Positions 9,506 through 24,788 of a stretch of DNA of 64,000 nucleotides are shown piece by piece. The stretch's first letter is position 1. The number at the start of each line of letters is the position of its first letter. Location of the stretch: positions 1-64,000 of IMG/VR virus record IMGVR_UViG_3300025115_000003, one strand, 5' to 3'. The notes under the pieces were generated by a model, which worked only from the letters and a program-made list of their open reading frames with translations, was not told the origin of the DNA and made no database searches. The position numbers and the translations under genes are program-made. Origin of the DNA: a virus.

Positions 9506-9532
9506 TTTAATTTAATTTACATTATTAATTGT

Positions 9533-11695: not shown

Positions 11696-11698
11696 ATA

Positions 11699-13981
11699 TT
11701 AATCTTTATAACCGTACAAACCTATTTGAGAATGAATTGATACATTATTTACTGCTTTAATTGCTTCATCCAGTTTCTTTATCTGTCTTACTTTATTTGC
11801 AAATGGATATAGCTTTAAACTACTTATTCTATCAAAATTACCTGTAAGATTAAAGTTTTCTATTTCAAGTAATGTTGGCAAGTCTTTTATATAATGATAA
11901 CTGTACACAATCTGTCCATCCTCTCTAATTGCTCGTTTATTATACAACCACTCTTTTAAATATATATGAGATTCAGTAGAGTTATCTCCACTACCCATAT
12001 TAATACCATAGTTGATACTTTCTTTACCAACAATTCTATTTGATATAATATCTGTAGGATCTTGCATTATTAAATGTAATTTACCCCACTTCTTAAAATC
12101 AGAAACTATAGTACCTCTATCAACCTCTGGTAAGACTTTAGCATTATAATGTTCACATAAATACAATACTATTCTATTAATTTCTTCCATAGTCTCAGGT
12201 CTACCTGCATAAGCTGCTACAATTATATCTCCTGTAGTAGAAGGTAAATTAGTAGGATGCATTAATACATGAATACTATTTAAAGAATTTTTATTAATAA
12301 CTAATTCAGTTTTTTTATCCTTAGCCACACTATCAAAGACAACAGTATATAAATTATCAGGAGTTCTACCTTCTATAGTATAAGGAGGATAAAATTCTCT
12401 TATGCAACCATAGAAATCTTTCTTAGGATTAAACGGTACATCTTCAATATAAGGATGAGCATACTTTTCAAGACCTTCAGCAATTAATTGTTTATTAGTC
12501 TTAAATACAATCTTCTTTCCTATTTCAAATAGCATTCCATCTCTATAATAAGATAGAGCAGGATTAGATTGTAATTCAGAAATATGAGCAGATAAACCAG
12601 GACTACTATATATATTCTCATTAGCAGTTTTAAACGCTTCAGCAGGTTTATTTGCTCTTTGTCCAACATAAGTTAACCATTTATCTACAGATTGTTCAGC
12701 AGCATATTTCTTTTTATCTTCAATATCATATTTTTCTGCTTCTAATAATAAACTATTACCATGTTGATCTATAAACGGTTCCATGTTTAATACTTGAGGA
12801 TGAAAGAAACCACATACAGTTCTTCTTGAATTATCATCCCAAATATTTTCAAATGGCATCATTTTATAATTAGCAGGATTATAAAAAGCTGTACTAAAAG
12901 GTCTCCAGTCAGCACCTTTAACACCTGCTGTACCATAACATCTAATAGTACCTACATTACCGGCACCTACTTCAGTAGAACTTAAAGTAACATCTAATGC
13001 CTGATCAAGATTATTACATTTACCAGATTCTTCAAAGTCTATTTCTAAAGCACGTTTACCAATAGCAGCACTGGGATTATTAAATAAAGATACAGATAAA
13101 GCCTTACTTCTAAATCCAAATTTCTTATTGCCACCTTTTTTAGTTTTATACCCTAACTCAATAGCATCTAACTTTTCAGATAAATAAAATCTTTTCCAAT
13201 GAGTATTCTCTTCATACCAGTCAAGATTAGTCTTAACCATATCAGAAGTAGCACCTTGATCAGTAAGATAAGCTAAGTCATAAGCAGCTAAGATTACAGT
13301 AGCAAAAGGAATAATATTAATAGTATTAGCAGCTTGACTACCTCTTTTATAAGAATAACCTTTGCCACGAGCTTTAGCTTTAGTTAAGTGATAATTATTA
13401 TCTGCTATAAATCTATCAATCTTAAAGTTCCAATAATCACCATCCCAAAATCTTGGAAAACCTTGAACTAATTTAGTTTTATAATCACCTTTTTCATGTA
13501 ACTCTATTTGTTCTTGCTTAGTAGGAGTTCTTAATATTCTACCATAATTAAGATAATTATAATGATCACCAGTAATATGTAAATCTGTAATACTGCCATC
13601 TTTAAGTTTACACTTAGCAGTCATTCCATTTCTACGTCTGTATGTTTCTTGTTTCCAAAATTCATTATACTCATTAGTACCTTTTACATGAGGACAATAA
13701 TAATATTTACCTTTGTTTTCTCCAATAGATACATCTAATCCTTCAATCCATGCAACTAAATCAGGATTCTTTTTATTTTCTTCATAAGCATGAGCTACCT
13801 TAGAAAATATATCTGTATCTATAAATTGAAAATCTATATTAAGTAAAAATCCTCCTGATGCTCCAACTTTAAAATCATTATCTGGATCAATAAATGGCTT
13901 ATTAGTTCTACTATCTATGACAGTAGAAGCAAAGTCATACATTGACTTATCAGAAAATACGTATTCTATAAAAGGTAACAT
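11699..13981 (-). CDS. terL: Terminase large subunit
   Basis: A 760-residue DNA-packaging motor. The N-terminal ATPase domain has a Walker-A-like RGKGYSYKRGS at residues 205-215 with Lys207 as the likely catalytic lysine. Acidic residues follow in the Walker-B region (KRALEIDFEESGK). A RNase H-like nuclease domain follows from about residue 535 (YTVVFDSVAKD) with later acidic positions in LPEVDRGTIVSDF near residue 617. The length agrees with crAss-like TerL proteins. The gene sits upstream of portal and downstream of a helical small protein that may be its TerS partner. Confidence 0.85.
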   Translation of the reverse strand: MLPFIEYVFSDKSMYDFASTVIDSRTNKPFIDPDNDFKVGASGGFLLNIDFQFIDTDIFSKVAHAYEENKKNPDLVAWIEGLDVSIGENKGKYYYCPHVKGTNEYNEFWKQETYRRRNGMTAKCKLKDGSITDLHITGDHYNYLNYGRILRTPTKQEQIELHEKGDYKTKLVQGFPRFWDGDYWNFKIDRFIADNNYHLTKAKARGKGYSYKRGSQAANTINIIPFATVILAAYDLAYLTDQGATSDMVKTNLDWYEENTHWKRFYLSEKLDAIELGYKTKKGGNKKFGFRSKALSVSLFNNPSAAIGKRALEIDFEESGKCNNLDQALDVTLSSTEVGAGNVGTIRCYGTAGVKGADWRPFSTAFYNPANYKMMPFENIWDDNSRRTVCGFFHPQVLNMEPFIDQHGNSLLLEAEKYDIEDKKKYAAEQSVDKWLTYVGQRANKPAEAFKTANENIYSSPGLSAHISELQSNPALSYYRDGMLFEIGKKIVFKTNKQLIAEGLEKYAHPYIEDVPFNPKKDFYGCIREFYPPYTIEGRTPDNLYTVVFDSVAKDKKTELVINKNSLNSIHVLMHPTNLPSTTGDIIVAAYAGRPETMEEINRIVLYLCEHYNAKVLPEVDRGTIVSDFKKWGKLHLIMQDPTDIISNRIVGKESINYGINMGSGDNSTESHIYLKEWLYNKRAIREDGQIVYSYHYIKDLPTLLEIENFNLTGNFDRISSLKLYPFANKVRQIKKLDEAIKAVNNVSIHSQIGLYGYKD

Positions 13982-13984
13982 TCT

Positions 13985-14599
13985 TTACCAATCTCTATTT
14001 GGATCAGCACTATCTGGAACCTCTTCTTCAGTTCCTCTTAATAAAGTTCTATCAGTAAGGCTTGTATCTCTTTCTAATTCCTTCATTGCTTCTTTAAGTG
14101 ATCTAACCTCACCTGGAATACCCTTTGAAACACTAATAATAACAGATATCAAATCTAACAATTCTTGAGCCTGATTTTTATTTAAACCTGCTTCCGAATC
14201 CATTAAATCACTAATACTCTTTCTTACCTTTTGAACAATATTACCATAATATTTAAAACTCTTTAATAACTCACCTATTACTTCATTTACTACAGAATGA
14301 CAAGTATCCTTATAATCAACAATAGCTTGTTTAACTATAGCATCAGGTTTCCATTTATCTGGAAAACTTATTTTAGTTAATATAAAATTATGTGCTTCTT
14401 TATCGCTAAGTCCTTTCTTGTACACAGGAGATTCATAATCAGCCATAAACCAAACATATGCTAATTCTCTATGAGCCATATCTTTAGTTTTATCTCTTTT
14501 TATAATCTCTCTAAAAGAATCATAAGAGAGTAATTCAATAGTATTAACTATTAATTTACCATCTTCATTGATCTTAAATATATTAATCTTTGTCGACAT
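13985..14599 (-). CDS. Helical protein upstream of TerL, small terminase candidate
   Basis: With ATG at 14599 the product is 204 residues (MSTKINIFKINEDGKLIVNT). An ATG at 14614 would add five residues and lengthen the overlap with the upstream gene. It is mostly alpha-helical. Residues about 40-85 have HRELAYVWFMADYESPVYKK, and residues 105-175 form a coiled-coil-like section (GELLKSFKYYGNIVQKVRKS). The C-terminus is acidic (GTEEEVPDSADPNRDW). The stop lies 3 bases from the TerL start. TerS proteins are poorly conserved and are usually called by position. This fits in size, helicity and location, but no DNA-binding motif is certain. Confidence 0.5.
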   Translation of the reverse strand: MSTKINIFKINEDGKLIVNTIELLSYDSFREIIKRDKTKDMAHRELAYVWFMADYESPVYKKGLSDKEAHNFILTKISFPDKWKPDAIVKQAIVDYKDTCHSVVNEVIGELLKSFKYYGNIVQKVRKSISDLMDSEAGLNKNQAQELLDLISVIISVSKGIPGEVRSLKEAMKELERDTSLTDRTLLRGTEEEVPDSADPNRDW

Positions 14600-15053
14600 A
14601 TGGTAAATTAGCAACTTTAACTTTAACTATATAACCATCATCCATATATTTCTTAACTAAATCAAATAGAGGTTTTTCATAAGTATTATATATTCTAAAG
14701 TTTACTTCATCTACATTGCTTGCAACCAATGGACAGCCTTCAGTATTATGATGTGTATTACCGCCATGAAAATACACATGAGAAAAACTAACTCCACCTT
14801 GTTTAATAGTAGCTTTATCTTTCTCTGTATATAAACATAGCATATCTCTTTTAAATCTATTAGAATATCTAATACCTATATTATATCCATTTGGATTTTC
14901 AAATATAGCAGTATGAGTTTTAATTTTAACTCCAAAAGGTCTAACTGCATCTTCTAAAGTATAACATAATAATTTATCACCAAGATAAAGTTTACCTAAA
15001 GTAGTATCAGTAGAATATTTATATCTAATTAAATCAAGATAAATTGTTTCCAT
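14583..15053 (-). CDS. DUF5675-type protein, peptidoglycan-lysis candidate
   Basis: A 156-residue protein with the DUF5675 signature HGGNTHHNTEGCPLVA at residues 96-111: His96, His101 or His102 and Cys107 are spaced like the catalytic or ligand residues of that family, and LCYTLEDAVRPF near residue 30 matches its conserved early strand. DUF5675 proteins of phages are proposed to act on peptidoglycan. With a holin-like gene in the same operon, this protein could be the lysin or a virion-associated wall-degrading enzyme. The family call is good; the enzymatic role is inference. The end overlaps the TerS candidate. Confidence 0.7.
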   Translation of the reverse strand: METIYLDLIRYKYSTDTTLGKLYLGDKLLCYTLEDAVRPFGVKIKTHTAIFENPNGYNIGIRYSNRFKRDMLCLYTEKDKATIKQGGVSFSHVYFHGGNTHHNTEGCPLVASNVDEVNFRIYNTYEKPLFDLVKKYMDDGYIVKVKVANLPYVDKD

Positions 15054-15056
15054 AAT

Positions 15057-15566
15057 TTATAAGTTTAAATATACAACATAATCATTATATGCCTTAGCTT
15101 TACCACCAAAGTAAGGAAATAGATAATAACCAAAATTCCAATTTTTAAATTCAATAGGTACAGTATAAATATTATTTATAGTTAAATATACCTTAACTGT
15201 ATTAAGTTTAATTCTAACTTTAACTTTCTGACCAGCACTAAATGACATATAAGGTATTCTTTTTTCAACACCTTTATAATCACTTATAATATATAAATCG
15301 TATTTATCTTTGGTAATAGTAGGATACCAACCAATAACTATACTATTAACAAATTGTTTAGTAAAAGGTATTTTACCTAATATTCTTTCACCATGTATAA
15401 TAGAAGAAATACCAACAATTTTACTAATTCCATCTCCTTCTACTAAACTACTATTAAACCAACCTTCTTTAACAATAAATTCAAATGTAAATTCTTTTTT
15501 ATTAAACCAAAATTTAGGAATCCATCTGGACTTATGACTGTTCTTTTTTACAGTATATACTTTCAT
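15057..15566 (-). CDS. Beta-sandwich (lectin-like) protein of unknown function, 169 aa
   Basis: A basic, aromatic protein with an all-beta pattern: FTFEFIVKEGWFNSS, SIVIGWYPTITKDKYDLYII, and a glycine-aromatic C-terminus (FGYYLFPYFGGKAKAYNDYV). Glycoside-hydrolase-16 and concanavalin-like jelly rolls often end in such 'pYfGG...a.hd' patterns, so a sugar-binding or wall-binding fold is plausible. It sits between the nuclease gene and the DUF5675 gene, overlapping the former by 4 bases. No catalytic acid pair is evident. The fold is a guess and the function unknown. Confidence 0.55.
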   Translation of the reverse strand: MKVYTVKKNSHKSRWIPKFWFNKKEFTFEFIVKEGWFNSSLVEGDGISKIVGISSIIHGERILGKIPFTKQFVNSIVIGWYPTITKDKYDLYIISDYKGVEKRIPYMSFSAGQKVKVRIKLNTVKVYLTINNIYTVPIEFKNWNFGYYLFPYFGGKAKAYNDYVVYLNL

Positions 15567-16540
15567 CGTCTAAATATATTTAATTGTGGTTCAGCTTTAA
15601 GTTTACTTCCACAATAATGATCGACCATTTTAACAATATCTTCTTTCATATAATTAATAGGTAATATATCAGTTACTTGTTTACCTATTAATTCAGGATA
15701 CCTTATAATATCAGGATGATCTTTAGTATAATAATCATGCCTAATATGACAAAGAATTAATGCCTGATTAACTAAACCAAATGCTTCAGTTAACCAGGCA
15801 TATTTACTTAATTGTAATGAATATTTAATACCAGTGCTTTGATGTAAATAATGTAATGGAAATCTTAATCTATCTTCATTAAGTATATAATTAGTAATAT
15901 TTCCATTATCATCTTTATCATAATAACCAGATTCAAATCTAATAGGAGCTTTATTAGTTTTCCAATCTAATATAACAAAATTATTATCTTTAATTAAAAA
16001 AATATCAATTAAACCAGCAATTAATCTAACATAATCATAAACACATATCTCAGAGTATATACTCCAACCATCATTTACAAAGGCTTCAATTATCTTATAA
16101 ATTTTAGGGTATTTATCCTTAACACCTAATTTAATAAAAGTATTTAAATCTAATTTACCTATATTAGTATTTGGATTAAGAATTAAATCTTTGATAGTAA
16201 ATAATCTTCCAGATTGAACTACAAAAGGAGAAACAAATCCTGTAGCAGTATCTACAGAATCTTCTAAATAACTATGTGTAGAATTACCAATGTTTTGACC
16301 AGTTATTCTATCTTTCTCCCATTTAGCTAATATTTGTAAATAAGTCATTCCCTTATACCTATTATATTTAGGATGTAAAGGATTTTTACCTATCTTTTCA
16401 CAGGCTTTAGCTATATCTCTTTCTTTATCTGCAAACTTATATTCATAATCACCTATAACAGTTGTAACACTTGTATAACTATTACCAAAGTTATCTGTAT
16501 ATTTATGACGTTTACTATCAAATAATATTTCTATATCCAT
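15563..16540 (-). CDS. PD-(D/E)XK nuclease (RecB/Cas4-like exonuclease)
   Basis: A 325-residue protein with the restriction-endonuclease-fold core: Glu164 in YSEICVY, Asp179 in GLIDIFLI, and Asp192-Trp-Lys194 in FVILDWKTNKAP, followed by YSLQLSKYAWL, the helix after the core in RecB-type nucleases. An upstream GNSTHSYLED (His89) matches the conserved 'G..H..le' motif of this superfamily. It would process DNA ends during recombination, replication-intermediate clean-up or host DNA breakdown. It is the first large gene of the late operon, just behind a strong promoter, so it may prepare concatemers for packaging. Confidence 0.8.
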   Translation of the reverse strand: MDIEILFDSKRHKYTDNFGNSYTSVTTVIGDYEYKFADKERDIAKACEKIGKNPLHPKYNRYKGMTYLQILAKWEKDRITGQNIGNSTHSYLEDSVDTATGFVSPFVVQSGRLFTIKDLILNPNTNIGKLDLNTFIKLGVKDKYPKIYKIIEAFVNDGWSIYSEICVYDYVRLIAGLIDIFLIKDNNFVILDWKTNKAPIRFESGYYDKDDNGNITNYILNEDRLRFPLHYLHQSTGIKYSLQLSKYAWLTEAFGLVNQALILCHIRHDYYTKDHPDIIRYPELIGKQVTDILPINYMKEDIVKMVDHYCGSKLKAEPQLNIFRR

Positions 16541-16692
16541 TAAAATAAGATAATTGACTTAGACTTTATAATATAGTTTATGTTTTCAATTAACCCTTTT
16601 TTCTTACCTGACTTGCTAACTTCCTGTATTACCTTATTATATAAGACAGGAGTAAGATTTTTATTAGCTGACTGTTTGATAATGATATTCAT
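16540..16692 (-). CDS. Small basic protein, 50 aa, first gene after the late promoter
   Basis: The frame starts at ATG 16692 and reads MNIIIKQSANKNLTPVLYNK; its TAA shares one base with the ATG of the nuclease gene (TAATG). It begins 17 bases after a consensus promoter, so it is the leader gene of the late operon. The product is Lys-rich with no membrane segment or known motif. A small nucleic-acid-binding or regulatory role is possible but unproven. Confidence 0.55.
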   Translation of the reverse strand: MNIIIKQSANKNLTPVLYNKVIQEVSKSGKKKGLIENINYIIKSKSIILF

Positions 16693-16708
16693 ATACTAAA
16701 TTTTTATA

Positions 16709-16739
16709 CAAAGATAATATATAAATATACATTTGTCAA
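16709..16739 (-). promoter_or_regulatory. Bacteroidota-type promoter of the late operon
   Basis: On the minus strand TTG (16739-16737) is followed after exactly 20 bases by TATCTTTG (16716-16709), matching the Bacteroidota sigma consensus TTG-N19-21-TAnnTTTG. The element starts with TTGACAA. It overlaps the last codons of the 141-residue gene upstream and lies 17 bases before the first late small gene. A nearly identical element stands at 33481-33511 on the other strand. Confidence 0.8.
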
Positions 16740-17161
16740 GTATTTTTGATACTTTTTTGTAAATTTAATGTTAAATTGTCCACAGCTTCATTCTTGAACC
16801 GCTTACTATTTCCAATTTTAATTTCTCTGCCTACAATAGCCATCTGTTTATCTACTTCTTCTTTTTTATCAATGGGTAAATCATTGTAACTTTCAAACCC
16901 CATTGCTTCAACTAATTTATGTCTATAATCTAAATAATCTAATTTATTCTTTTTAATTGTAATATTACCAATTCTTGGTAGATAAATATCTTTACGCATA
17001 TTCATAAAAGAATTAGCTACTTTAGATATATGAGATTCTAATTCAATTATTAAATTAGATAAAACTATAGGAGATACATCATCAAAGTGACCTATGTATT
17101 TATCAAACTTAGGTTCTTTACAATCTATTATAGTTCTACTATATACTACTTCATTATCCAT
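16736..17161 (-). CDS. Conserved small protein of unknown function, 141 aa
   Basis: A helical, lysine-rich protein. The middle reads YLPRIGNITIKKNKLDYLDY, which looks like a conserved core, followed by EAMGFESYNDLPIDKKEEVD. It has no membrane segment or enzymatic motif. It overlaps the upstream 154-residue gene by a single base, so the two form one unit. Its 3' end overlaps the late promoter, so it is upstream of, not part of, the main late transcript unless there is read-through. Function unknown. Confidence 0.6.
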   Translation of the reverse strand: MDNEVVYSRTIIDCKEPKFDKYIGHFDDVSPIVLSNLIIELESHISKVANSFMNMRKDIYLPRIGNITIKKNKLDYLDYRHKLVEAMGFESYNDLPIDKKEEVDKQMAIVGREIKIGNSKRFKNEAVDNLTLNLQKSIKNT

Positions 17162-17625
17162 TACTCAACAATTCCTATTACATCAACGGCATCTAAGATA
17201 AAATAATTAATAATATCAATAGTAGGATAAACCTTAATAAATAAAGAATAATCTTCCTTAGATAGCTTTCTTGCTCTATCTATAAAAGTAGTAAATCTTT
17301 GAGGATTAAGATCAGTAGGAATAGCCTTTGAAGCTAAATCTGCTCTTACATAACCGTTAATAACAATTCTCTTACCTATCCAATCTTTATATTCATCATT
17401 AGCAGCAATTACTTCCATATAATCTGCTGTAACAGTAAAATTCTTTTGATCAATAGATAAAATATTAAAAGTTTTAAAATCTTTTTGAACACCTTTTACT
17501 AATAAACATTTACCAACAGGTTTAATATTTGGTAAAATATTTACATCATAGATTACATCTACAAAAGTTTTAACTTCTGGTTGTAATTCTAATTCTTCTA
17601 CTAACTTTGTTTCTAACTCACTCAT
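17161..17625 (-). CDS. Beta-barrel protein of unknown function, possibly GroES-like, 154 aa
   Basis: After an acidic N-terminus (MSELETKLVEELELQPEV), residues about 33-95 show KPVGKCLLVKGVQKDF, VTADYMEVIAANDEYKDWIG and KRIVINGYV. The spacing of 'kPvg...LVkg' and 'G.rivin' recalls the GroES beta-barrel. I see no clear mobile-loop sequence, so this is a suggestion only. It is the first gene leftwards from the control region and is co-transcribed with the 141-residue gene. It could be a co-chaperonin-like assembly factor or an unrelated OB/barrel protein. Confidence 0.55.
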   Translation of the reverse strand: MSELETKLVEELELQPEVKTFVDVIYDVNILPNIKPVGKCLLVKGVQKDFKTFNILSIDQKNFTVTADYMEVIAANDEYKDWIGKRIVINGYVRADLASKAIPTDLNPQRFTTFIDRARKLSKEDYSLFIKVYPTIDIINYFILDAVDVIGIVE

Positions 17626-17639
17626 AATAAAAGTTTTTT

Positions 17640-18135
17640 ATTTATTTATAAATATATTATTTAAAAGACCTTCTAATTTAATAATCCAGAATCATCACCT
17701 GGTTATTACCATGACACCTTTTCAACTACTATTTGGTTTACCATTTGATTTAACAATCTGATTCAAAAAAAATTATATTTTTAATCCTGACTGCGTTTAT
17801 ACTACCATTTAAGATTTAATCTTAATTAAATCTTACTGCGGTAAAACCTTCAGTTTTTGAATTTGTATCTTAACTGTTGTTTAAAATGTTAATCTAATTA
17901 ACATCTTATATTATATAAGGGGGGGATCGAATTACCTGACAAAGGTAATTAAAATTTTTGACAAAGTCAATAAAATACAGGCTAAAATTAGCCCTAAATC
18001 AGCTTAATTGTTAACAAGTTATTAACAGGAGTGAAATTATTAACAGTACAATAAAAACTAATATTATTATTAGTATTAATATTAGTATTATATTCAATAA
18101 TAGTTTTATAACTAATAAGGTAATGATCAGTTGTT
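17640..18135. other. Divergent intergenic control region, origin candidate
   Basis: No gene is visible. The stretch holds an inverted repeat AAGATTTAAT/ATTAAATCTT (17811-17834), a G7 run near 17920, and three consecutive hairpins: AATTACC/GGTAATT (17930-17950), TTGAC/GTCAA (17958-17970) and GGCTAA/TTAGCC (17980-17993). These are followed by TTAACA repeats at 18011, 18022 and 18040 (the last two inside TTATTAACAG, which resembles a DnaA box) and a nearly pure AT stretch at 18058-18115. This combination, at the point where transcription diverges, fits a replication origin. No experiment or skew calculation supports it here. Confidence 0.4.
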
Positions 18136-18186
18136 AAACCCATAGGATAGGAAGCATATATGGGGGAACTTCATGTTTGTAACAGA
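18136..18186 (+). repeat. Interspersed intergenic repeat, copy A
   Basis: AAACCCATAGGATAG starts at 18136, is followed by ATATGGGGGAA, and GTAACAGA lies at 18179-18186. The same order (AAACCCATAGGATAAG, GGGAA, GTAACAGA) recurs at 46140-46189 with almost equal spacing. Shorter versions occur near 24.3 and 46.2 kb on the opposite strand. No ORF covers it. Possible protein-binding element or small RNA gene. Confidence 0.7.
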
Positions 18187-18205
18187 CCTCTAATATAACA
18201 GTTAA

Positions 18206-18217
18206 AGTACCGGTACT
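18206..18217. promoter_or_regulatory. Perfect 12-base palindrome AGTACCGGTACT
   Basis: A perfect dyad lies 400 bases before the first early gene. TACCCCCGT follows at 18241, and CTTGTAC-CCCC-GTACAAG (18567-18584) repeats the GTAC theme. Likely dimeric-regulator sites, by inference. Confidence 0.4.
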
Positions 18218-18317
18218 ATCTTCTAATAGTCTATTAAAAGTACCCCCGTCAAATTCTAATACTAAAATAATATATACAAATAAAAAACATTATCTATCAT
18301 TATCCTATATATACATT

Positions 18318-18530
18318 GCCAAAAAATAATAATTAATGTAAATGATAAATTAGATAATAAAATGTAATATAAAAAATTAAAATATATAAATAAGAATAAA
18401 GATATTAAAATAAAGATAATAGTAAATAATAAAAATTAAAAAGAAATAATAGAATGATTAAAATAATAAATAGGAAGAATATGATATGATAAAAGGTAAT
18501 TGAAATGTGAATGTAATAGAGAGATGGAAT
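18318..18530. other. Non-coding, purine-rich AT stretch
   Basis: This part of the control region has no ORF. The plus strand is almost only A, T and G, with A far above T and C nearly absent between about 18325 and 18500. GAATGTAATAGAGA at 18509-18522 recurs with one change at 20179-20192, also upstream of a small-gene unit. Confidence 0.45.
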
Positions 18531-18566
18531 CACCTTCATGACTTATGGTATGTTGTTAGTCTGAAT

Positions 18567-18584
18567 CTTGTACCCCCGTACAAG
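18567..18584 (+). promoter_or_regulatory. Palindromic hairpin before the first early gene
   Basis: CTTGTAC (18567-18573) pairs with GTACAAG (18578-18584) over a CCCC loop, 42 bases before the ATG of the first rightward gene. TTTTC follows. It could be an operator, or a leader hairpin controlling the early gene. No TAnnTTTG box is evident between it and the gene. Confidence 0.45.
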
Positions 18585-18625
18585 TTTTCAATTAAATTTC
18601 TATTAACCCATAAAAAATTAAAGTT

Positions 18626-19138
18626 ATGTCAAATCCTGTTAAGGGCAATAGCCCAAGAACTACTATGCATCAGGTTGTAATTTCCAGTATCAAACCAGCT
18701 AAGACTTATGATGATTTGTTCATCGTGACTGGCAGAGACGATATCTCAGGAGAATCTCTAACATTTAGCTGTAATGCAGCCATAATGGAAGGAGTTACCG
18801 AAGAGTCAGTTTGCTCTGTTGTGCTGGAACATCGTGTGGGAGGTTTAACTACCTATATCACAAGGGAAAAGGAATTGCGTATTCATGAACGTGACGGTGT
18901 TGCTGCAAAGAGTATCATACCTGTTAAACGTGTACTCACAATGAATGACGCAATTGCTATGAATGCAGCATCGTTGCAAGCCAGATTTGGTCAAATGTTT
19001 GTGACGAAAAGCCCTACCATTCAGATTACAGCAAAGAGCGACGTACCTGAACCGGAAGAAGCCGAAGTTGTAGAAACAGCAGAAGTACCAGCAGAAGTAC
19101 CAGCAAAAGCAACAGCAAAGCCTAAAGGTACAAAGTAA
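18626..19138 (+). CDS. First rightward gene: unknown protein with low-complexity tail, 170 aa
   Basis: Residues 1-125 form a compact domain (KPAKTYDDLFIVTGRDDISG and VPVKRVLTMNDAIAMNAASL-type segments). Residues 130-170 are a low-complexity Glu/Val/Ala/Pro tail with repeated AEVPAEVPAK ending in a basic KPKGTK. Codon use is visibly less AT-biased than in neighbours (CGT, CTG, GAC are frequent). It stands alone between a hairpin and a terminator, as a monocistronic unit next to the control region. A nucleic-acid-binding or host-takeover role is possible. I do not recognise the family. Confidence 0.65.
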   Translation: MSNPVKGNSPRTTMHQVVISSIKPAKTYDDLFIVTGRDDISGESLTFSCNAAIMEGVTEESVCSVVLEHRVGGLTTYITREKELRIHERDGVAAKSIIPVKRVLTMNDAIAMNAASLQARFGQMFVTKSPTIQITAKSDVPEPEEAEVVETAEVPAEVPAKATAKPKGTK

Positions 19139-19163
19139 CCACTAAAACGAGTAAAACGAGATT

Positions 19164-19196
19164 AGAGGGCAGCAATGCTCTCTTTTCTCTTTTTAT
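19164..19196 (+). terminator. Factor-independent terminator
   Basis: AGAGGGCA (19164-19171) pairs with TGCTCTCT (19176-19183) with one G-T pair over a GCAA tetraloop, followed by TTTCTCTTTTTATTT. It ends the transcript of the first early gene. Confidence 0.8.
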
Positions 19197-19234
19197 TTCT
19201 CCCATGTTTAAAATAAACCCTAATACATAAAACA

Positions 19235-19540
19235 ATGACAACAGTTGAATTACTACATATTGGCTTACTGTTCTTAATCCTTATTGTATTAATAGGATTG
19301 TACTCTTTAGCCGTAATGATTAAAGATCATTTTGCTGATTGTTTTAAAGATGAGGATTTGGAAGCTCCTTTTAATAGGAGATCAGAAATTACTGCTGAAC
19401 TCTTTATGAGCCATGATTACTTTAAAACATTAAATTATACTGATTTACTATTCATACTTAGTGGTATGGATGATAAAGAAGTAGAGAAACTCGGTGATGA
19501 TATACATGAAATAGCAGATAAATTCATTAAAAATAGATAA
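19235..19540 (+). CDS. Single-pass membrane protein, 101 aa
   Basis: Residues about 7-30 (HIGLLFLILIVLIGLYSLAV) form a strong transmembrane helix. The remaining roughly 70 residues are acidic and helical (FNRRSEITAELFMSHDYFKT) and probably face the cytoplasm. It is 2 bases from the next gene, so the two are co-transcribed. It may act in superinfection exclusion or in modifying the host membrane, as many early phage membrane proteins do, but nothing specific shows this. Confidence 0.6.
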   Translation: MTTVELLHIGLLFLILIVLIGLYSLAVMIKDHFADCFKDEDLEAPFNRRSEITAELFMSHDYFKTLNYTDLLFILSGMDDKEVEKLGDDIHEIADKFIKNR

Positions 19541-19542
19541 CC

Positions 19543-20106
19543 ATGTGCTTAGAAAACATTAGTGAAAAGAAAATTGCCAAACGTAATATTAAATGTTACA
19601 AATGGTTAAAAAAAGTATTTGATTTGACAACTCTTGCCAACGCTCACGGAAAGCCTTTTAAGGCTAAAATACGTGAAAAAGAAGTAGAAGGAGTAATTTC
19701 TATAAGTAGTAGTGGAGGTATATACTTTTGTCAAAATCATCATGATGGAGCAGATGCTTTTGATAAATTTGGATATGAATATTCTTGGGCAATGGATAGT
19801 AATGTATCTAATATAGCCGTTGAAGGAATTGAAGTCCCTTTTACTCTAATTACTCCATATCAGGAGATTCCTGTTGAAATAGGAAAAACCTATCTCTCAG
19901 AGGTGGAAGTAACTAATTCTATTATTGGGGAAGGACTACATTCTTTTTATGATTTAGAAGATGCAATTGATGATGCTGACGATAATTGGGTCATAGTAGA
20001 ATGTATAATTCCGAAAGGAAGTACATACTACAGTGGGACATTTATAGGATGGAAATCCTATGCTTCTAATGAATTGAAGTATGAAGAGATAGTAAGGGAA
20101 AGATAA
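19543..20106 (+). CDS. Unknown early protein, 187 aa
   Basis: The N-terminal part is basic (MCLENISEKKIAKRNIKCYK). A glycine/serine strand with ISISSSGGIYFCQNHHDGAD follows. The C-terminal 60 residues (GLHSFYDLEDAIDDADDNWV, then ECIIPKGSTYYSGTFIGW) look like a domain I associate with hypothetical proteins of Bacteroides phages and mobile elements, without known function. The aromatic-glycine strand with KGSTYYSG recalls ADP-ribosyltransferase-like folds, but no catalytic triad is certain. A strong terminator follows. Confidence 0.6.
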   Translation: MCLENISEKKIAKRNIKCYKWLKKVFDLTTLANAHGKPFKAKIREKEVEGVISISSSGGIYFCQNHHDGADAFDKFGYEYSWAMDSNVSNIAVEGIEVPFTLITPYQEIPVEIGKTYLSEVEVTNSIIGEGLHSFYDLEDAIDDADDNWVIVECIIPKGSTYYSGTFIGWKSYASNELKYEEIVRER

Positions 20107-20113
20107 AAATAAT

Positions 20114-20159
20114 AAAGTAAGCCAATAATATTGATGTTGATGTTGTTGGCTTACTTTTT
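20114..20159 (+). terminator. Factor-independent terminator
   Basis: AAAGTAAGCCAA (20114-20125) pairs with TTGGCTTACTTT (20146-20157) over a 20-base loop, followed by further T residues. It ends the two-gene unit from 19235. Confidence 0.8.
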
Positions 20160-20484
20160 AAATATAATATGAAATGATGAATGTGATAGAGAATTAGGCA
20201 CTGTTTCCTTCGGAAACTTTACTTAATCCTCAATCATTAAATTTATTATTTCTTTTTATAATGTTATTATTTATTATTTTTTATCTTTTAATCATACTAT
20301 ACTATCAAATATTATTACTTTTATAACCTCAATTAAACTTATATATCTATTATTATATAATGTTTATTTTTTATAAACTCTGTTAATGTTCCTTTAGTCA
20401 GAGTATAATTAAAACTATAAATAAAAGGAGTGCATTGCATGTAATATTGCATTAAGGTTGCTCAAACTCAAAAACTTATTAATC
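20160..20484. other. Non-coding AT-rich leader region
   Basis: No gene is visible in about 325 bases. It holds GAATGTGATAGAGA (20179-20192, repeat of 18509), a GTTTCC/GGAAAC hairpin with a 3-base loop (20203-20217), a pyrimidine-rich stretch, and a leader before the next ATG whose final part (CAAACTCAAAAA then CTTATTA) recurs before the gene at 21205. It probably contains a promoter, but no clear TTG-N20-TAnnTTTG was found. Confidence 0.45.
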
Positions 20485-20691
20485 ATGTCACAGAACGAAT
20501 ATTCATCACAGGAATTATACCGTGCAGTATTAGCATGTGTTATATTCTCAACAGCCAATGATAATCAGGGACTTAAAGAAGTCGCTGGTAAAACCTTTGG
20601 AGACAAAGTACACACAATTATTCATCATACTCTTAATAGTAAGTCTGCTGTAGAGGTAGTAAGTAAATTAAAAACATTTACTGGTGAATAA
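20485..20691 (+). CDS. Small unknown protein, 68 aa
   Basis: ATG at 20485 is preferred over an in-frame TTG at 20458, because the 27 bases before the ATG belong to a leader that is duplicated before another gene. The product (MSQNEYSSQELYRAVLACVI) is helical, soluble and near neutral. No motif is recognised. Confidence 0.5.
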   Translation: MSQNEYSSQELYRAVLACVIFSTANDNQGLKEVAGKTFGDKVHTIIHHTLNSKSAVEVVSKLKTFTGE

Positions 20692-20728
20692 AATAATTCT
20701 TTGAATTTCCCCTGCAATAACATCAAAT

Positions 20729-21073
20729 ATGAAATATCTAATTATTACAACCGATAAAAGAAAAGTATTTGGTATCGGTACAATTATATTTGCTGATACT
20801 AAAATCTTTTTTGATGATATTTTAGGAAAAGAGTGTGAAGTTCCCTTTGCTGACATTTTAGAAATAAGAGAAGATTGTGAAAAATTCATTCCTTATCCTG
20901 AAGAAGAAGCAAATAGAATATTTAACAACTGGCCAGAAATATCTGAATTTTGGTATACTTCTGATATGAAAGCCTTTATTAGAGCAGAAGAAGCTGTTGA
21001 ACACAGTTTAACTCTAATTAATACAATTGTGATAAACTACTGTATATTAGAAGGTTCTACAATACAATCTTAA
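20729..21073 (+). CDS. Unknown early protein, 114 aa
   Basis: The first 60 residues look like a small beta domain (MKYLIITTDKRKVFGIGTII, then KECEVPFADILEIRED). The rest is helical and acidic. It is preceded by TTTCCCCTGC and ATCAAA, and followed by the same motif with small changes, so a repeated element flanks it. No known family; probably an early host-interaction protein. Confidence 0.5.
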   Translation: MKYLIITTDKRKVFGIGTIIFADTKIFFDDILGKECEVPFADILEIREDCEKFIPYPEEEANRIFNNWPEISEFWYTSDMKAFIRAEEAVEHSLTLINTIVINYCILEGSTIQS

Positions 21074-21085
21074 TACATTTGAGCT

Positions 21086-21120
21086 TCCCCTGCGATTATA
21101 TCAAAGGGGATTCTCTTTTA
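21086..21120 (+). terminator. Terminator-like hairpin
   Basis: TCCCCT (21086-21091) pairs with AGGGGA (21105-21110) and TTCTCTTTT follows. The stem is short, so termination may be partial. Its left arm is part of a sequence also found before the gene at 20729. Confidence 0.5.
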
Positions 21121-21204
21121 ATAAAGTGGACTAAGCCACTATAAATAGTTGTTAGGCTTAGTGCGTTGCTTATAGCAGGTCAAACTCAAAAAAAACTTAT
21201 TATT

Positions 21205-21378
21205 ATGACACTATCATTTAATTTAATATGGACTGATTCAAAATCAAAAAATCGAATTCAGATGGAAAACATGAGTTCTAAATGTCTTGCTAATCTTATA
21301 ATTAGATTAGGAAATACTGCTATAGAACATGAAATTACCATTTGTCCAAATCAAGAGTATTTAGGAAAGCCTAAATAA
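21205..21378 (+). CDS. Small unknown protein, 57 aa
   Basis: ATG at 21205 (MTLSFNLIWTDSKSKNRIQM) is preferred over an in-frame TTG at 21166, since the leader before this ATG is shared with the gene at 20485. The product is basic, with strands at the N-terminus and a central helix. No motif is recognised. A terminator hairpin follows. Confidence 0.45.
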   Translation: MTLSFNLIWTDSKSKNRIQMENMSSKCLANLIIRLGNTAIEHEITICPNQEYLGKPK

Positions 21379-21403
21379 TTGAAATGGAGATTTGAAAGAT
21401 TTG

Positions 21404-21442
21404 AGTTCCCCGAAATCTAAGGAAAGTAGGGGAACTATATTT
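21404..21442 (+). terminator. Terminator-like hairpin
   Basis: AGTTCCCC (21404-21411) pairs perfectly with GGGGAACT (21429-21436) over a 17-base loop. ATATTTAAATT follows rather than a pure U-run. Confidence 0.55.
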
Positions 21443-21476
21443 AAATTAGCATAGGTAAAATTAAACAACGACAATT

Positions 21477-21653
21477 ATGAAATACTGTATTGCAGCTTGT
21501 GATAGATTTGAACAAATTCCTGATCCCTATAATAATGGTAGGATTTGCTTTAAGTCTAAAAATACCTTTTTTGATAGAACCGACCTTACAGGGATTATGA
21601 ATGACCCTAAATTCCTGTTCATAGTACACGATATTGTATATTTCAATACTTAA
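21477..21653 (+). CDS. Small unknown protein, 58 aa
   Basis: The frame runs from ATG at 21477 to TAA at 21651 and reads MKYCIAACDRFEQIPDPYNN near its start. It has an in-operon position between two other small genes, with 11 bases to the next. It contains Cys4, Cys8 and one later Cys but no zinc-finger spacing. It is compact and mixed in structure. Function unknown. Confidence 0.5.
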   Translation: MKYCIAACDRFEQIPDPYNNGRICFKSKNTFFDRTDLTGIMNDPKFLFIVHDIVYFNT

Positions 21654-21664
21654 ATCTATTTATT

Positions 21665-21922
21665 ATGAAAGTGAAGATGTTTACCAAAGATGAAAAATGT
21701 GAAAACATTATTTCAGTAAATGTATGTCATATGACGATGTTTGAAAAACATGAGATATGTTTGCATTTTAATGGTATGGGTAATATGATATCCGAAGATC
21801 AAATAAAATTTTTGGAAGTATGTATCAAAAACCACATATTGGTTGAAGTTCAAGGTCATGAAGTTACAATAATTCCCGAACCTAAGAACTTTCAAAGAGT
21901 TAGATTTCGTTTTGATTCTTAA
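21665..21922 (+). CDS. Small unknown protein, 85 aa
   Basis: A short alpha/beta protein (MKVKMFTKDEKCENIISVNV), with a central helix SEDQIKFLEVCIKNHILVEV and a basic end FQRVRFRFDS. No motif or membrane segment. It ends the small-gene cluster before the tRNA region. Confidence 0.5.
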   Translation: MKVKMFTKDEKCENIISVNVCHMTMFEKHEICLHFNGMGNMISEDQIKFLEVCIKNHILVEVQGHEVTIIPEPKNFQRVRFRFDS

Positions 21923-21950
21923 TAAAGAATGCTAACAAGTTTGGAGTGTG

Positions 21951-22076
21951 CGAAAACCTTTTCGACCTTTTATGGATTGGAAATAATAATGAATAATTAT
22001 TGCACATAATTCTATTTCCAAATAAGTTAGAGTTAATCGTAAACATAGGGATATATACTTATGTGATAAGATTAAC
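21951..22076 (+). ncRNA. Structured untranslated region upstream of the tRNA
   Basis: No ORF lies here. Successive inverted repeats are CGAAAA/TTTTCG (21951-21964), GGAAATA/TATTTCC (about 21978-22020, with further AT pairing inside) and GTTAATC/GATTAAC (about 22033-22077) enclosing ACATA/TATGT. Such nested stems suggest a structured RNA or processing signals for the tRNA precursor. It matches no riboswitch I recognise. Confidence 0.4.
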
Positions 22077-22113
22077 TTCCATTCAACATAGATAGAGTGG
22101 ACATTCTTTTTAT

Positions 22114-22187
22114 AATCTCATAGTTTAAACTGGTTATAATATTAGCTTTTATAGTTAAAGTTTCAGGTTCGATTCCTGATGAGATTG
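22114..22187 (+). tRNA. tRNA, predicted anticodon UUA (ochre-suppressor type)
   Basis: A 74-base cloverleaf can be drawn. The acceptor is AATCTCA/TGAGATT (7 bp), the D-stem GTTT/TAAT has one T-T mismatch, the D-loop holds GG and A14/A21 equivalents, the anticodon stem is TTAGC/GTTAA with one G-T pair, the variable loop is AGTT, and the T-arm is TCAGG-TTCGATT-CCTGA. The discriminator is G; CCA is not encoded. The 7-base anticodon loop is TTTTATA, so positions 34-36 (22149-22151) are TTA, pairing with UAA and, by wobble, UAG. Position 37 is T, where tRNAs normally have a purine. G73 and central U35 fit glutamine identity weakly. The tRNA fold is convincing; its decoding is uncertain, since TAA is the main stop codon of this phage. 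Confidence 0.75.
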
Positions 22188-22222
22188 CAATCTATTAAAT
22201 TATTAATTTAATACTTAAAGTT

Positions 22223-22612
22223 ATGCCATTTATTTCAAATCAAGATTTAAAACTTATTAATATTCACATAGATGAATTAAATAAGTTAATTGCTGATAGA
22301 ATACAGGATTTAATTAAAACCTTTACACAAAATGCAATTAAATCTATTAGCGCTAAAGCAAAAGAATATGCTGAAGTAGATATATCTAAAGCTATTGATT
22401 CCATCAGTATTGAAGAAGAAAGATTATCTCGACATACTTATTTTGCTTTAGGCGCTGGTAGTAAAGAAGCATTTAATTATAATTTTATTAAATCTGAATT
22501 GTTATTTGTTGAATTAATTACTATTGTTAGTAAACAAGAACAATTAGAAGAAAACATAAATGCATTTTATAGTTGGTTTATCCAAAAATTAAAAGAAAAT
22601 GAAAAAGATTAA
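22223..22612 (+). CDS. Helical unknown protein, 129 aa
   Basis: Almost entirely alpha-helical and charged (LKLINIHIDELNKLIADRIQ, then SAKAKEYAEVDISKAIDSIS), with coiled-coil potential over residues 10-60 and at the C-terminus. It has no membrane segment. It overlaps the next gene by 14 bases, so translation is coupled. It is the first gene after the tRNA. Function unknown. Confidence 0.55.
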   Translation: MPFISNQDLKLINIHIDELNKLIADRIQDLIKTFTQNAIKSISAKAKEYAEVDISKAIDSISIEEERLSRHTYFALGAGSKEAFNYNFIKSELLFVELITIVSKQEQLEENINAFYSWFIQKLKENEKD

Positions 22613-22877
22613 AGACGTACTTGAGGCAATTACAATAAGAGATGCCATAAATGGTAATCATATAACTGTTACAGATTTAGTAGGAGCAATTCTTCCAGAT
22701 AATACCTTTAGAAAAGCCATTCCTGCTAAATTCATGTTTGTTATTTTTATAAAGGATAAGACTAAGTATTATTCTCAACATTATAATACAAAGGAAGATT
22801 TATTCTTTGCTATGTATGATGTTGTAAAAATTCACGGTAAAGAAAATGTTACACATATAAAAATCGAAGAAGTATGA
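22599..22877 (+). CDS. Unknown small protein, 92 aa
   Basis: A compact alpha/beta protein (ITVTDLVGAILPDNTFRKAI) ending with alternating strands. It overlaps both neighbours (14 and 4 bases, ATGA type). No motif is recognised. Confidence 0.5.
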   Translation: MKKIKDVLEAITIRDAINGNHITVTDLVGAILPDNTFRKAIPAKFMFVIFIKDKTKYYSQHYNTKEDLFFAMYDVVKIHGKENVTHIKIEEV

Positions 22878-23377
22878 TAGGAACAATAAAAGCATTTCCT
22901 GTAACAGGAAAAATCAAAGAAGGAGTAACTGTACTAACTTCTGAAGGGGAAGTAGTAAAAGTCACTGAAGTAAAGGACAACATTGTAGTTTGTGCAAATG
23001 ATAAAAGTTATTCCTTAAGTGTAGTTACATTAATAAAAAAATATGTAGTAAATCGCAATAAAATTGCAGAATTACATTTTAGCGATTACCAATTATCTTT
23101 GGATAAAAAGGTTGAAGTAGCTACAAAGGAATCTTTAGTTAATGGTTTCATAGGAGACCACGTGAGAATCTTTAAAGTATCTGCTGATATGTTAAATTCA
23201 GATGAGTATTTAAAGATTGAACCTATTAACGGTGTTATTGTTGATATTGGTGATAATATGTATGAGGTTGAAACAATCTATGGTAAGAAGTTTAAAGTAA
23301 GGCGACATTACTTTGAAATTCTTACACGTAAGAATACTAAATTAGTTGGTAAATATATACGTGATGTTGACATTTAA
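22874..23377 (+). CDS. Protein with SH3-like (KOW-type) barrels, 167 aa
   Basis: Two similar beta-barrel-like stretches can be seen: residues about 10-55 (KIKEGVTVLTSEGEVVKVTE) and about 110-150 (INGVIVDIGDNMYEVETIYG), each with the 'G..V......G.V..v.dn...v' pattern of SH3-like/KOW domains that bind nucleic acid or protein. The linker is charged. A role in transcription or translation control would fit, but this is pattern-level inference only. It overlaps the following gene by 14 bases. Confidence 0.5.
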   Translation: MIGTIKAFPVTGKIKEGVTVLTSEGEVVKVTEVKDNIVVCANDKSYSLSVVTLIKKYVVNRNKIAELHFSDYQLSLDKKVEVATKESLVNGFIGDHVRIFKVSADMLNSDEYLKIEPINGVIVDIGDNMYEVETIYGKKFKVRRHYFEILTRKNTKLVGKYIRDVDI

Positions 23378-23690
23378 AGATAATGTAAAAGAAAACACTC
23401 CCAAAGAATATACTATTGGTATAGTTGTATATATTGAAAATGTATTTTATGCTAATGTCAAAGATACTTTGTATGAAATAGATTATCAAATATGTAATTA
23501 TACCACTGTATATAGCAAACCTAACAACGATAAATATTCTGCTTGGACAGAAAAGAAAAATAAAATTATTTCTAATTCCAAAGCAGAAGTTTATTGGAGT
23601 CCATTTAAACCTGGTATGAGAATACAAGGTAATATAATTAAAAACAAATTTGTAGAAAAGAAAAGTAAAATTAAAAAGCCATGCAAATAA
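23364..23690 (+). CDS. Unknown basic protein, 108 aa
   Basis: ATG at 23364 overlaps the end of the preceding gene by 14 bases; a TTG at 23346 would add six residues and is less likely. The first 60 residues resemble another short SH3-like barrel (EYTIGIVVYIENVFYANVKD), similar in pattern to the protein before it, and the end is very Lys-rich (KKSKIKKPCK). It may be a nucleic-acid-binding partner of its neighbour. Confidence 0.5.
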   Translation: MLTFKDNVKENTPKEYTIGIVVYIENVFYANVKDTLYEIDYQICNYTTVYSKPNNDKYSAWTEKKNKIISNSKAEVYWSPFKPGMRIQGNIIKNKFVEKKSKIKKPCK

Positions 23691-23929
23691 CAAAAATTGT
23701 AATCACTAAAAGGAAAGAAGCATTTCCGCTAATAGATGTAACTGTTAAATATTGGGGTTTTATCCCTGTTTCTTATCGCTCTATTAAAATACGTACTCGT
23801 AAAAATCGAGTATGGGAGAGTGTTTTTGGTCAAGTAGGCACAAACCGTGCCAAAAAGATTACTGCTTTATACGATGCCCGAATTGAGGATCAGTTTAAAG
23901 GAGTAATATTTATTGATAAAACAAAATAA
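23681..23929 (+). CDS. Small basic protein, 82 aa
   Basis: Strongly basic (SYRSIKIRTRKNRVWESVFG), with Arg/Lys along the middle and an overlap of 10 bases with the preceding gene. The charge suggests binding of DNA or RNA. No family is recognised. A strong terminator follows. Confidence 0.5.
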   Translation: MQITKIVITKRKEAFPLIDVTVKYWGFIPVSYRSIKIRTRKNRVWESVFGQVGTNRAKKITALYDARIEDQFKGVIFIDKTK

Positions 23930-23961
23930 TCCTAAGTTGTTCTTTGTATAGGGAGTGGGGA

Positions 23962-23997
23962 TAAGGGAGGAGTAGGATTATCCTCCCTTACTTTTTA
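23962..23997 (+). terminator. Factor-independent terminator
   Basis: TAAGGGAGGA (23962-23971) pairs perfectly with TCCTCCCTTA (23981-23990) over a 9-base loop, followed by CTTTTT. It ends the 22223-23929 operon. Confidence 0.85.
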
Positions 23998-24017
23998 ATC
24001 TAATAATAATTAAAATC

Positions 24018-24263
24018 ATGAGAACCTATTTATTACTTATAACAATAATGTTAATTGTTATGTATCTTATAGTTAACTATAATAAAGATAAAAATATAGA
24101 AAGAGAACATCAAAAGAAAATGAATGAGTTGAAGTATCTACAAAAGGCGCAAGATATAAAAACCAGTATTCAATTAAAATTGGATATAATGGAATTAGAC
24201 AGTATAATCAATGAGAGTAGGAAAAGAATGGAGTATACTGTTAGCGTTACGACAGCAAAATGA
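24018..24263 (+). CDS. Small membrane-anchored coiled-coil protein, 81 aa
   Basis: Residues 4-21 (YLLLITIMLIVMYLIVNY) form a transmembrane helix or uncleaved signal anchor. The remaining 60 residues are a charged coiled coil (NIEREHQKKMNELKYLQKAQ). The pattern is that of an inner-membrane spanin-like or membrane-modifying early protein. No lipobox is seen. It follows a terminator and is followed directly by an interspersed repeat. Confidence 0.55.
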   Translation: MRTYLLLITIMLIVMYLIVNYNKDKNIEREHQKKMNELKYLQKAQDIKTSIQLKLDIMELDSIINESRKRMEYTVSVTTAK

Positions 24264-24269
24264 GGTTGA

Positions 24270-24302
24270 CCCCCCATGTGCATCATCTTATCCTATGGGT
24301 TT
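24270..24302 (-). repeat. Interspersed intergenic repeat, copy B (reverse orientation)
   Basis: On the minus strand AAACCCATAGGATAAG (24302-24287) is followed by a short spacer, CACATG and a run of G. This matches copy A at 18136 in both the conserved 15-mer and the G-rich end. It lies in a gap of 92 bases without a gene. Confidence 0.65.
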
Positions 24303-24355
24303 TGGGAAGTAAGATAACTTATTAAATAACAAAATGATTTTAAATTGATACAAAA

Positions 24356-24460
24356 ATGAAAACTTTTCTTATAGTTTTTTTAGTAATATTTGCTATTGTA
24401 ATGTTATTCAATTCTGATAAATTTAATAATGATGACAACGAAGGATTTTATAATAGCTAA
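24356..24460 (+). CDS. Tiny membrane protein, 34 aa
   Basis: The frame MKTFLIVFLVIFAIVMLFNS is almost entirely a transmembrane helix, followed by an acidic Asn/Asp-rich tail, and stops at 24458-24460. It overlaps the next gene by 32 bases. Size and shape are typical of phage small membrane peptides, but with so short a frame chance cannot be ruled out. Confidence 0.4.
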   Translation: MKTFLIVFLVIFAIVMLFNSDKFNNDDNEGFYNS

Positions 24461-24788
24461 CAAAGATATAGTTAAAGATTTTTTAGAATGGTTAACTACT
24501 AATTCTAATTTAACTGTACTTTTACCCATGCCAATAGAAACAATTATTGGTTATGCTATTAAATACTTAGCTACTAAAAATTTATCTTATATATGTGATC
24601 TTAATAGTATAATTGTATATTATCTTGATCCTAAATTAGTAGTTAATATATTATTAGCCAAACATGCTGAAACTGGAAAGTTTAATGATATAGCATATGA
24701 ACTATTCAATATTAATTCTCCAGATATAGTAACATCTCATTTAAAAGCAATTGAATTTTTACTTAATAAACTTAATAATCCTTTTTAA
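24429..24788 (+). CDS. Unknown protein, 119 aa
   Basis: Helical, moderately hydrophobic (DIVKDFLEWLTTNSNLTVLL and DPKLVVNILLAKHAETGKFN). A second ATG lies three bases after the first, so the start may be 24429 or 24432. Not clearly a membrane protein. Its stop is one base before the next ATG. No known family. Confidence 0.5.
   Translation: MMTTKDFIIANKDIVKDFLEWLTTNSNLTVLLPMPIETIIGYAIKYLATKNLSYICDLNSIIVYYLDPKLVVNILLAKHAETGKFNDIAYELFNINSPDIVTSHLKAIEFLLNKLNNPF

Follow-up and report, generated by a model that had tools for sequence, protein, structure and literature searches.

The window analyzed in this study covers 64,000 nucleotides, namely positions 1-64000 of a virus record that is 85,693 bases long. 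The − strand block at 1585-17625 encodes an exonuclease (phrog_298) and the major head protein (phrog_11589), the + strand block at 18626-46083 encodes a Dda-like helicase (phrog_325), a uracil-DNA glycosylase, a DNA polymerase (phrog_1252) and a helicase, together with a RecT-like match, a ligase and a deoxynucleotide kinase, and the − strand region at 46438-63960 is filled by two giant genes. The exonuclease is 43% identical to that of cr127_1 (Crevaviridae) and 24-35% identical to those of the rest of the 32 records matched by it, which are crAss-like or carry general phage names only. Judged from its sequence, the phage is crAss-like (Crassvirales), as the core genes of the order are present in their usual block order. 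The position and size of the two giant genes suggest that they correspond to the RNA polymerase genes, which occupy the equivalent place in p-crAssphage. The first late gene (17161-17625, − strand) has no assigned function and is weakly similar to the first late genes of the related loci L009 and L027, and the first early gene (18626-19138, + strand), encoding 170 amino acids, is without a family match. No initiator was recognized among the nine early genes at 18626-24788, of which six were compared with both libraries and three with Pfam only. Open reading frames (ORFs) of at least 140 aa end in TAA (29), TGA (6) or TAG (1), and recoding is not apparent because the long ORFs stay open in the standard code. 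The early region also contains a Pistol ribozyme (21125-21184, + strand, 58.8 bits) and a tRNA gene with the anticodon TTA, of the ochre-suppressor type (22114-22188, + strand); a similar case is described in PMC7886860. A large − strand ORF toward the end of the record (L005) contains repeats spaced by a step of 66 nt, as well as longer duplications, at ∼83.8-85.6 kb.

The two divergent blocks are separated by an ORF-free interval of 1000 nt (17626-18625), and the second largest such interval in the window is 354 nt long. Hence, the initial annotation correctly described this place as the largest noncoding interval, but it ended the interval at 18135 instead of 18625. Its assignment of the point of divergence between early and late genes also agrees with the gene content, with the exonuclease and head protein on the − side and the Dda-like helicase, polymerase and helicase on the + side. 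To compare this arrangement with that of relatives, a search with four aligned exonucleases was used, which returned 81 loci, of which 80 were kept and 62 could be mapped upstream of the exonuclease. With ORFs defined as at least 100 aa long, a divergent gap of at least 300 nt was found at the equivalent place in 32 of the 36 decidable loci, while the other 26 mapped loci reached a contig end or had no visible − strand ORF. The 32 gaps span 563-1510 nt, and the gap is shorter in four loci. Annotated Crassvirales also have a divergent gap, which in cr127_1 crosses the record ends, and of which annotation leaves only 108 nt in cr3_1. In p-crAssphage (BK010471 95632-96137) and cr127_1 the gap likewise lies upstream of the PD-(D/E)XK exonuclease block, and it carries copies of each phage's own dispersed element, which is described below. 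The p-crAssphage gap is also adjoined by a RepL-annotated gene, while no such gene was recognized in the window. The presence of a divergent gap at the equivalent place in 32 of 36 related loci argues that the interval is very probably the divergent early/late control region of a crAss-like phage.

The sequence of the interval itself did not match any DNA in the phage collection, and no convincing match was seen among the related loci compared. One contig is near-identical over the gap (99.96%-99.98%), and it therefore gives no test of constraint. Reading TAG as glutamine opened no frame in the gap beyond the existing one of 57 aa, and no Rfam family was found in it; a sub-threshold match to SNORD47 (E 1.3) sits in the first late gene and was taken as chance. 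A literature search, with most subscription papers outside its scope, found no description of this gap. The + strand contains no C between 18370 and 18500, and an AT-rich sequence at 18404-18451 (+ strand) has an inverted copy, 84% similar, at 20244-20292 (− strand).

The left half of the interval contains the three consecutive short palindromes on which the initial annotation had centered. All three have perfect stems, with 8 bp and a loop of 5 nt at 17930-17950 (palindrome 1), 5 bp and a loop of 3 nt at 17958-17970 (palindrome 2), and 5 bp and a loop of 4 nt at 17980-17993 (palindrome 3), the last being terminator-like on the − strand. Such a cluster, defined as three hairpins with stems of at least 5 bp and at least two GC pairs inside 70 nt, did not arise when the interval was dinucleotide-shuffled 500 times, and it has only one other counterpart in the window, at 58872-58934. 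The palindromes are part of a longer row of hairpins extending from 17810 to 18074, which includes four that had not been listed before: 17810-17835 (11-bp stem, loop of 4 nt), 17886-17904 (8-bp stem, loop of 3 nt), 17905-17919 (6-bp stem, loop of 3 nt) and 18057-18074 (7-bp stem). When 200-nt windows were scored for hairpin richness using DNA parameters, a pair span of at most 50 and 40 shuffles per window, the segment 17801-18000 ranked first of 639 with a z of −6.75. The conservation that had been proposed as a check of the palindromes was not observed, as the top hairpin window fell in the gap in four of 23 relatives, with ∼2.4 expected by our own arithmetic from the share of windows. The gap held one of the top three hairpin windows in nine of the 23. 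A hairpin array as an order-wide feature is thus ruled out, since it is top-ranked in only four of 23 relatives.

To the right of the palindromes, three TTAACA repeats are located at 18008-18045 on the + strand, with the hexamer starting at 18011, 18022 and 18040, and further copies of it start at 17750 and 17898. Three copies within 45 nt were not obtained in any of 1000 shuffles. The longer repeat word that had been reported holds for two of the three, which are identical to TTATTAACA (18019-18027 and 18037-18045), but the first one reads TTGTTAACA. The repeats are followed by the near-pure AT block noted earlier, which at 18048-18108 contains 90.2% AT, compared with 77.2% for the whole interval, and includes the hairpin at 18057-18074. 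The word TTATTAACA occurs twice in the window's gap versus 0.12 expected, and four times versus 0.29 expected in the gaps of the three nearest relatives (two copies in L027, and one each in L028 and L029), a number not reached in any of 500 shuffles; repeated initiator-like sites are thus shared with the nearest relatives. The wider motif tests used 49 gaps including that of the window, with limits set from ORF maps or annotation and cut at 1200 nt, some of which stop at a contig end and some of which come from mutually related loci. Over these gaps there were 12 copies in nine loci versus 4.8 expected, with a maximum of 11 in 100 shuffles. When all 9-mers were ranked without bias in four gaps, that of the window plus those of its three closest relatives, TTATTAACA came first, but its score of 4.50 was inside the range of the best scores from 60 shuffles (median 3.83, maximum 5.27). 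Because the word does not exceed the best shuffle, its weight rests on its having been named before the test was made. It differs by two mismatches from the E. coli DnaA box TTATCCACA. Like a DnaA-box origin, the window has repeated 9-mers beside an AT-rich tract at a switch of the skew; it differs in having two exact copies only, each with two mismatches to the E. coli consensus, and in a skew that is accounted for by the coding strand.

The GC skew was examined over the full record. A minimum at 18 kb, which had been suggested as a check of the origin, is present, but it only follows the coding strand. The skew is +0.193 over the + strand block, while in the − strand block it is −0.150 (46.4-60.9 kb), −0.138 (60.9-64 kb), −0.177 (64-80 kb), −0.121 (80-85.7 kb) and −0.207 (1-17.6 kb), and thus it changes sign only at the switches of the coding strand at 18 and 46 kb. 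Two replication forks leaving 18 kb on a circle are expected to produce a skew switch near the antipode at 60.9 kb. No such switch is seen there (−0.150 before; −0.138 and −0.177 after), which indicates that the skew minimum reflects the orientation of the genes. Since no strand-composition switch was found independently of the coding strand, the minimum is not independent evidence of an origin. The record is linear and without end repeats, so the circularity is an assumption.

The unbiased test of 7-mers over the 49 gaps pointed to a different element, as CCCCCGT came first, being present in 15 loci versus 0.1 expected. By our own classing, six of its 19 copies in the gaps belong to a dispersed type, in which the heptamer is followed by three purines, and 13 belong to another type. 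All 13 of the latter are directed toward the early genes, in 11 loci including the window, whose two copies are counted. Because the set used for discovery overlaps the set used for counting orientation, the orientation is cleaner evidence than the enrichment. The two copies in the window, at 18240-18249 and 18570-18579 (both + strand), share the sequence GTACCCCCGT, which occurs in the window only these two times, both within the gap; the second copy lies in the loop and stem of a terminator-like hairpin at 18567-18584. The corresponding sequence in p-crAssphage is TACCCCCGTCAAGTTCTA at 82, compared with TACCCCCGTCAAATTCTA at 18241 in the window, and the p-crAssphage copy is located at the end of an early gene, outside the gap. 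In 14 genomes scanned there were 14 copies of the early-side type, eight of which, by our own count, were in divergent gaps (two each in G000 and cr8_1, and one each in G002, G009, cr11_1 and crAss002). The copy in crAss002 is at 92496, upstream of the early genes of that phage.

Promoter-like boxes were also compared. The sequences TATCTTTGC and TATATTTGC, which are Bacteroides-type sigma −7 boxes, were enriched in the 49 gaps (nine loci versus 0.3 expected, and 13 loci versus 1.4 expected, respectively). TTTG and TA..TTTGC boxes, which resemble Bacteroides sigma promoters, were seen in both directions in the gaps of relatives, for example L075, L083 and L089. The strict form of the Bacteroides-type promoter (TTTG, 17-23 nt, TA..TTTG) occurs four times in the window, always outside the gap. 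A relaxed, late-directed match (TTG, 20 nt, TACCTTTG) lies at 17940-17970 on the − strand and overlaps palindromes 1 and 2. Since the window as a whole contains 20 matches of this relaxed kind, the single one in the gap is unremarkable and may be due to chance. If it is real, the palindromes could be operators of a late promoter.

Taken as a whole, these data are best explained by a divergent control region that may also hold a replication start site, a reading to which we assign a probability of about 0.6. In this explanation the early/middle replication block on the + strand and the late structural block on the − strand would be transcribed outward from the interval, and replication may begin at a site inside it. 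The TTATTAACA repeats may bind a protein, either an initiator or a regulator, the AT-rich tracts may help DNA opening, and the CCCCCGT element may act in early expression. The part of the explanation that makes the interval a replication origin is put forward at somewhat less than even odds, with TTATTAACA as its best support and none from the skew. Of the original proposal of an origin-like region, the early/late junction has held up and the repeat word TTATTAACA recurs in the nearest kin, while the palindromes proved unconserved and the skew confounded with the coding strand. According to PMC12386605, Ori-Finder placed the origin of the zeta crAss-like phage Lera at the position that serves as the starting point for counting two large gene blocks. 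The exact mode of replication of crAss-like phages is given as unknown in a 2023 review (PMC10136315). Cultured crAss-like phages would allow concrete tests of the interval, of its repeats and of the CCCCCGT element directed toward the early genes.

Of the alternatives, the one that survives best is that the gap contains promoters and operators only, replication starting elsewhere or at the genome ends, and that the palindromes and TTATTAACA bind phage regulators of the early-to-late transition. This possibility, which we rate somewhat below even odds, is consistent with the location of the gap between the early and late blocks, with the short, operator-sized dyads, two of which overlap the relaxed late-directed promoter match, with the early direction of the CCCCCGT copies, and with the fact that the coding strand alone accounts for the skew. 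By itself, however, it leaves the long hairpin array and the AT tracts unexplained, promoter matches of this relaxed kind number 20 across the window, and the regulator is only putative.

It is unlikely that the short hairpins, or the hairpin with CCCCCGT, are promoters that are read by an injected virion RNA polymerase at the start of early expression, as in phage N4. The N4 and crAss-like virion RNA polymerases are not known to belong to one family, which speaks against this explanation. The likeness to N4 is that the short hairpins of the window, some with 3-nt loops, precede the early block, and the difference lies in the polymerase family; any start sites at the hairpins of the window are putative. 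The orientation of the early-side CCCCCGT copies toward early genes also fits such promoters, and the stems flanking CCCCCGT are longer than in shuffled sequence (mean 2.79 versus 2.04, p 0.006, 14 sites), but at 10 of these 14 sites they are at most 3 bp long. The hairpin that holds the second CCCCCGT copy has a stem of 7 bp and stops ∼40 nt short of the first early gene, but it is also terminator-like. In PMC8375218 and PMC10136315 the crAss-like early genes are attributed to a virion RNA polymerase, and this attribution favors the N4-like explanation, for which the N4 hairpin promoters served as the comparison system (PMC4496689). No mapped promoter for the crAss-like virion polymerase was found in the literature covered. 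The remaining possibility is that the hairpins, unrelated to replication, act as intrinsic terminators or shape the untranslated leaders of the two divergent transcripts. It is improbable. In its favor, a scan called two terminator-like sites in the interval (17994-17979 on the − strand and 18567-18584 on the + strand); against it, just those two were called among its hairpins, and there is no need for terminators upstream of both blocks.

The dispersed type of CCCCCGT was followed in whole genomes of relatives. In 29 whole records there were 371 matches to CCCCCGT versus 14 to the reversed pattern, and the heptamer was present in 25 of them, being absent from G001, G011, G016 and cr127_1. In p-crAssphage, 15 of 16 copies share ACCCCCCGT(A/G)GAGGA, and 13 of these 15 are inside annotated genes, in either strand. 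The most over-represented words were of the dispersed kind, mostly CCCC(A/G)TA(A/G)A, in ten genomes, of which eight had been chosen for having at least 15 CCCCCGT, p-crAssphage was the reference and cr110_1 was included for its kinship with cr11_1. Three of the genomes without CCCCCGT have words of their own, which are CCCTGTAAAAGG in G011, TCCCTGTAAA in G016 and CCCTTGTGGCC in cr127_1, and no such element was found among the top 8- and 10-mers of G001 (80 kb, the record of L028). In crAss001 (L269 and L270, scanned without bases 100001-102679) there is a different, weaker word, CTCCAGAAG, with 27 copies. The element is 12-20 nt long, and 12 crAss-like genomes besides that of the window carry 9-31 copies each. 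By several measures the dispersed element of crAss-like phages is real. It is apparently undescribed, as no account of it was found in a literature search that had most subscription papers outside its scope.

The properties of the element were measured on a set of 266 sites in 13 genomes, defined by one pattern per genome chosen by us. In the comparison of cr11_1 with cr110_1, 25 of 27 sites were identical over 12 nt, while the flanks were on average 90.6% identical and by our own arithmetic ∼8 identical sites were expected; the 27 are those of the 28 cr11_1 sites that had enough flank, and all of them aligned. Of the sites inside ORFs, 17 of 19 were identical by our own count. The element is thus constrained even within genes in the one genome pair compared. 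Outside ORFs there were 108 of the 266 sites versus 41 expected. Sites inside ORFs were directed along the gene in 75 cases and against it in 83, and sites in one-direction intergenic DNA in 38 and 48 cases, respectively, and this balanced orientation rules out a promoter or terminator as the general role of the element. Divergent gaps contained seven copies versus 2.5 expected and convergent ones nine versus 1.6 (13 genomes, junctions where placeable). Because intergenic DNA is enriched as a whole, the divergent gap is not special for the element, and a role as an origin mark is ruled out.

The spacing of the sites was also not random. In the 12 genomes with at least nine sites, 38 of the 39 neighbor pairs less than 500 nt apart had their members on opposite strands, only one of 238 same-strand gaps was shorter than 1 kb versus 27 in strand shuffles, and the median same-strand gap was 7.0 kb. 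In a second set of six genomes, scanned with a fixed pattern, two of 74 same-strand gaps were below 2 kb, compared with 7.8 in shuffles, of which 1 of 5000 gave so low a number. Neighbors were on opposite strands in 48 of 80 cases, a number reached in 120 of 5000 shuffles. The weak result below 1 kb in this set (two versus 4.8, 224 of 5000 as low), together with the wide spread of gaps (CV 0.98), indicates that the effect is weaker there. Since the genomes are related, the sites are not fully independent.

The resemblance to Chi sites and DNA uptake sequences is that the element of the relatives is short and directional, lies in both strands within and between genes, and forms inverted pairs at some convergent gene ends. 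It differs from them in that its sequence varies between phage lineages, that its same-strand copies keep apart, and that the p-crAssphage 19-mer is missing from bacterial genomes outside phage DNA. Exact matches to this 19-mer, the element of one phage, were searched for in contigs of at least 3 kb from 84,980 bacterial and archaeal species genomes, and the eight bacterial-genome loci found were all p-crAssphage DNA, with best blocks 95%-98% identical. As the exact 19-mer was found in this collection only in stray p-crAssphage contigs, a host Chi is ruled out for the p-crAssphage element. The contigs concerned (L277-L284), which are filed as Chitinophaga silvisoli or an uncultured Clostridia MAG, align to p-crAssphage with best blocks of 95%-98% identity, which suggests contamination or co-binning. 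The comparison systems are treated in PMC8022716 and PMC2346458. At slightly less than even odds, we propose that Crassvirales carry a lineage-specific, directional address signal of 12-20 nt, tiled on each strand about every 7 kb and under selection even inside genes, of which the four copies of AAACCCATAGGATA(AG) in the window would be a reduced set. Possible roles are as a start site for priming or second-strand synthesis, or as a packaging or Chi-like signal that belongs to the phage itself. If the spacing reflects function, the element would act genome-wide in viruses that are among the commonest of the human gut, and it could lead to the protein by which it is read.

In the record studied here, the four copies of AAACCCATAGGATA(AG) are all intergenic. 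The first, AAACCCATAGGATA, is at 18136-18149 (+ strand) in the divergent gap, the second is at 24287-24302 (− strand) in the intergenic region 24264-24428, and the third and fourth, at 46140-46155 (+ strand) and 46233-46248 (− strand), lie within the convergent junction (46084-46437) as an inverted pair. Their sequence CCCATAGGATA (CCC-ATAG-GATA) resembles CCCC(A/G)TA(A/G)AGGA, and four copies are too few for a test of spacing. The element is not among the top over-represented words of the window. Exact ACCCATAGGATAAG was found in 103 stretches of viral contigs, and among the 80 listed there was one copy each and none of the crAss-like relatives compared here, so these matches were taken as chance. 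Whether the copies in the window and the element of the relatives share descent or function is, on sequence likeness, about an even question, and the presence of the dispersed element in the window in reduced form is doubtful. No copy lies in the divergent or convergent junction gaps of G011 and G016. In cr127_1 the divergent gap holds one copy, at 82340, and two copies at 28698 and 28869 make up an inverted pair one gene before the convergent junction, and in cr11_1 and crAss002 inverted pairs are found within the convergent gaps.
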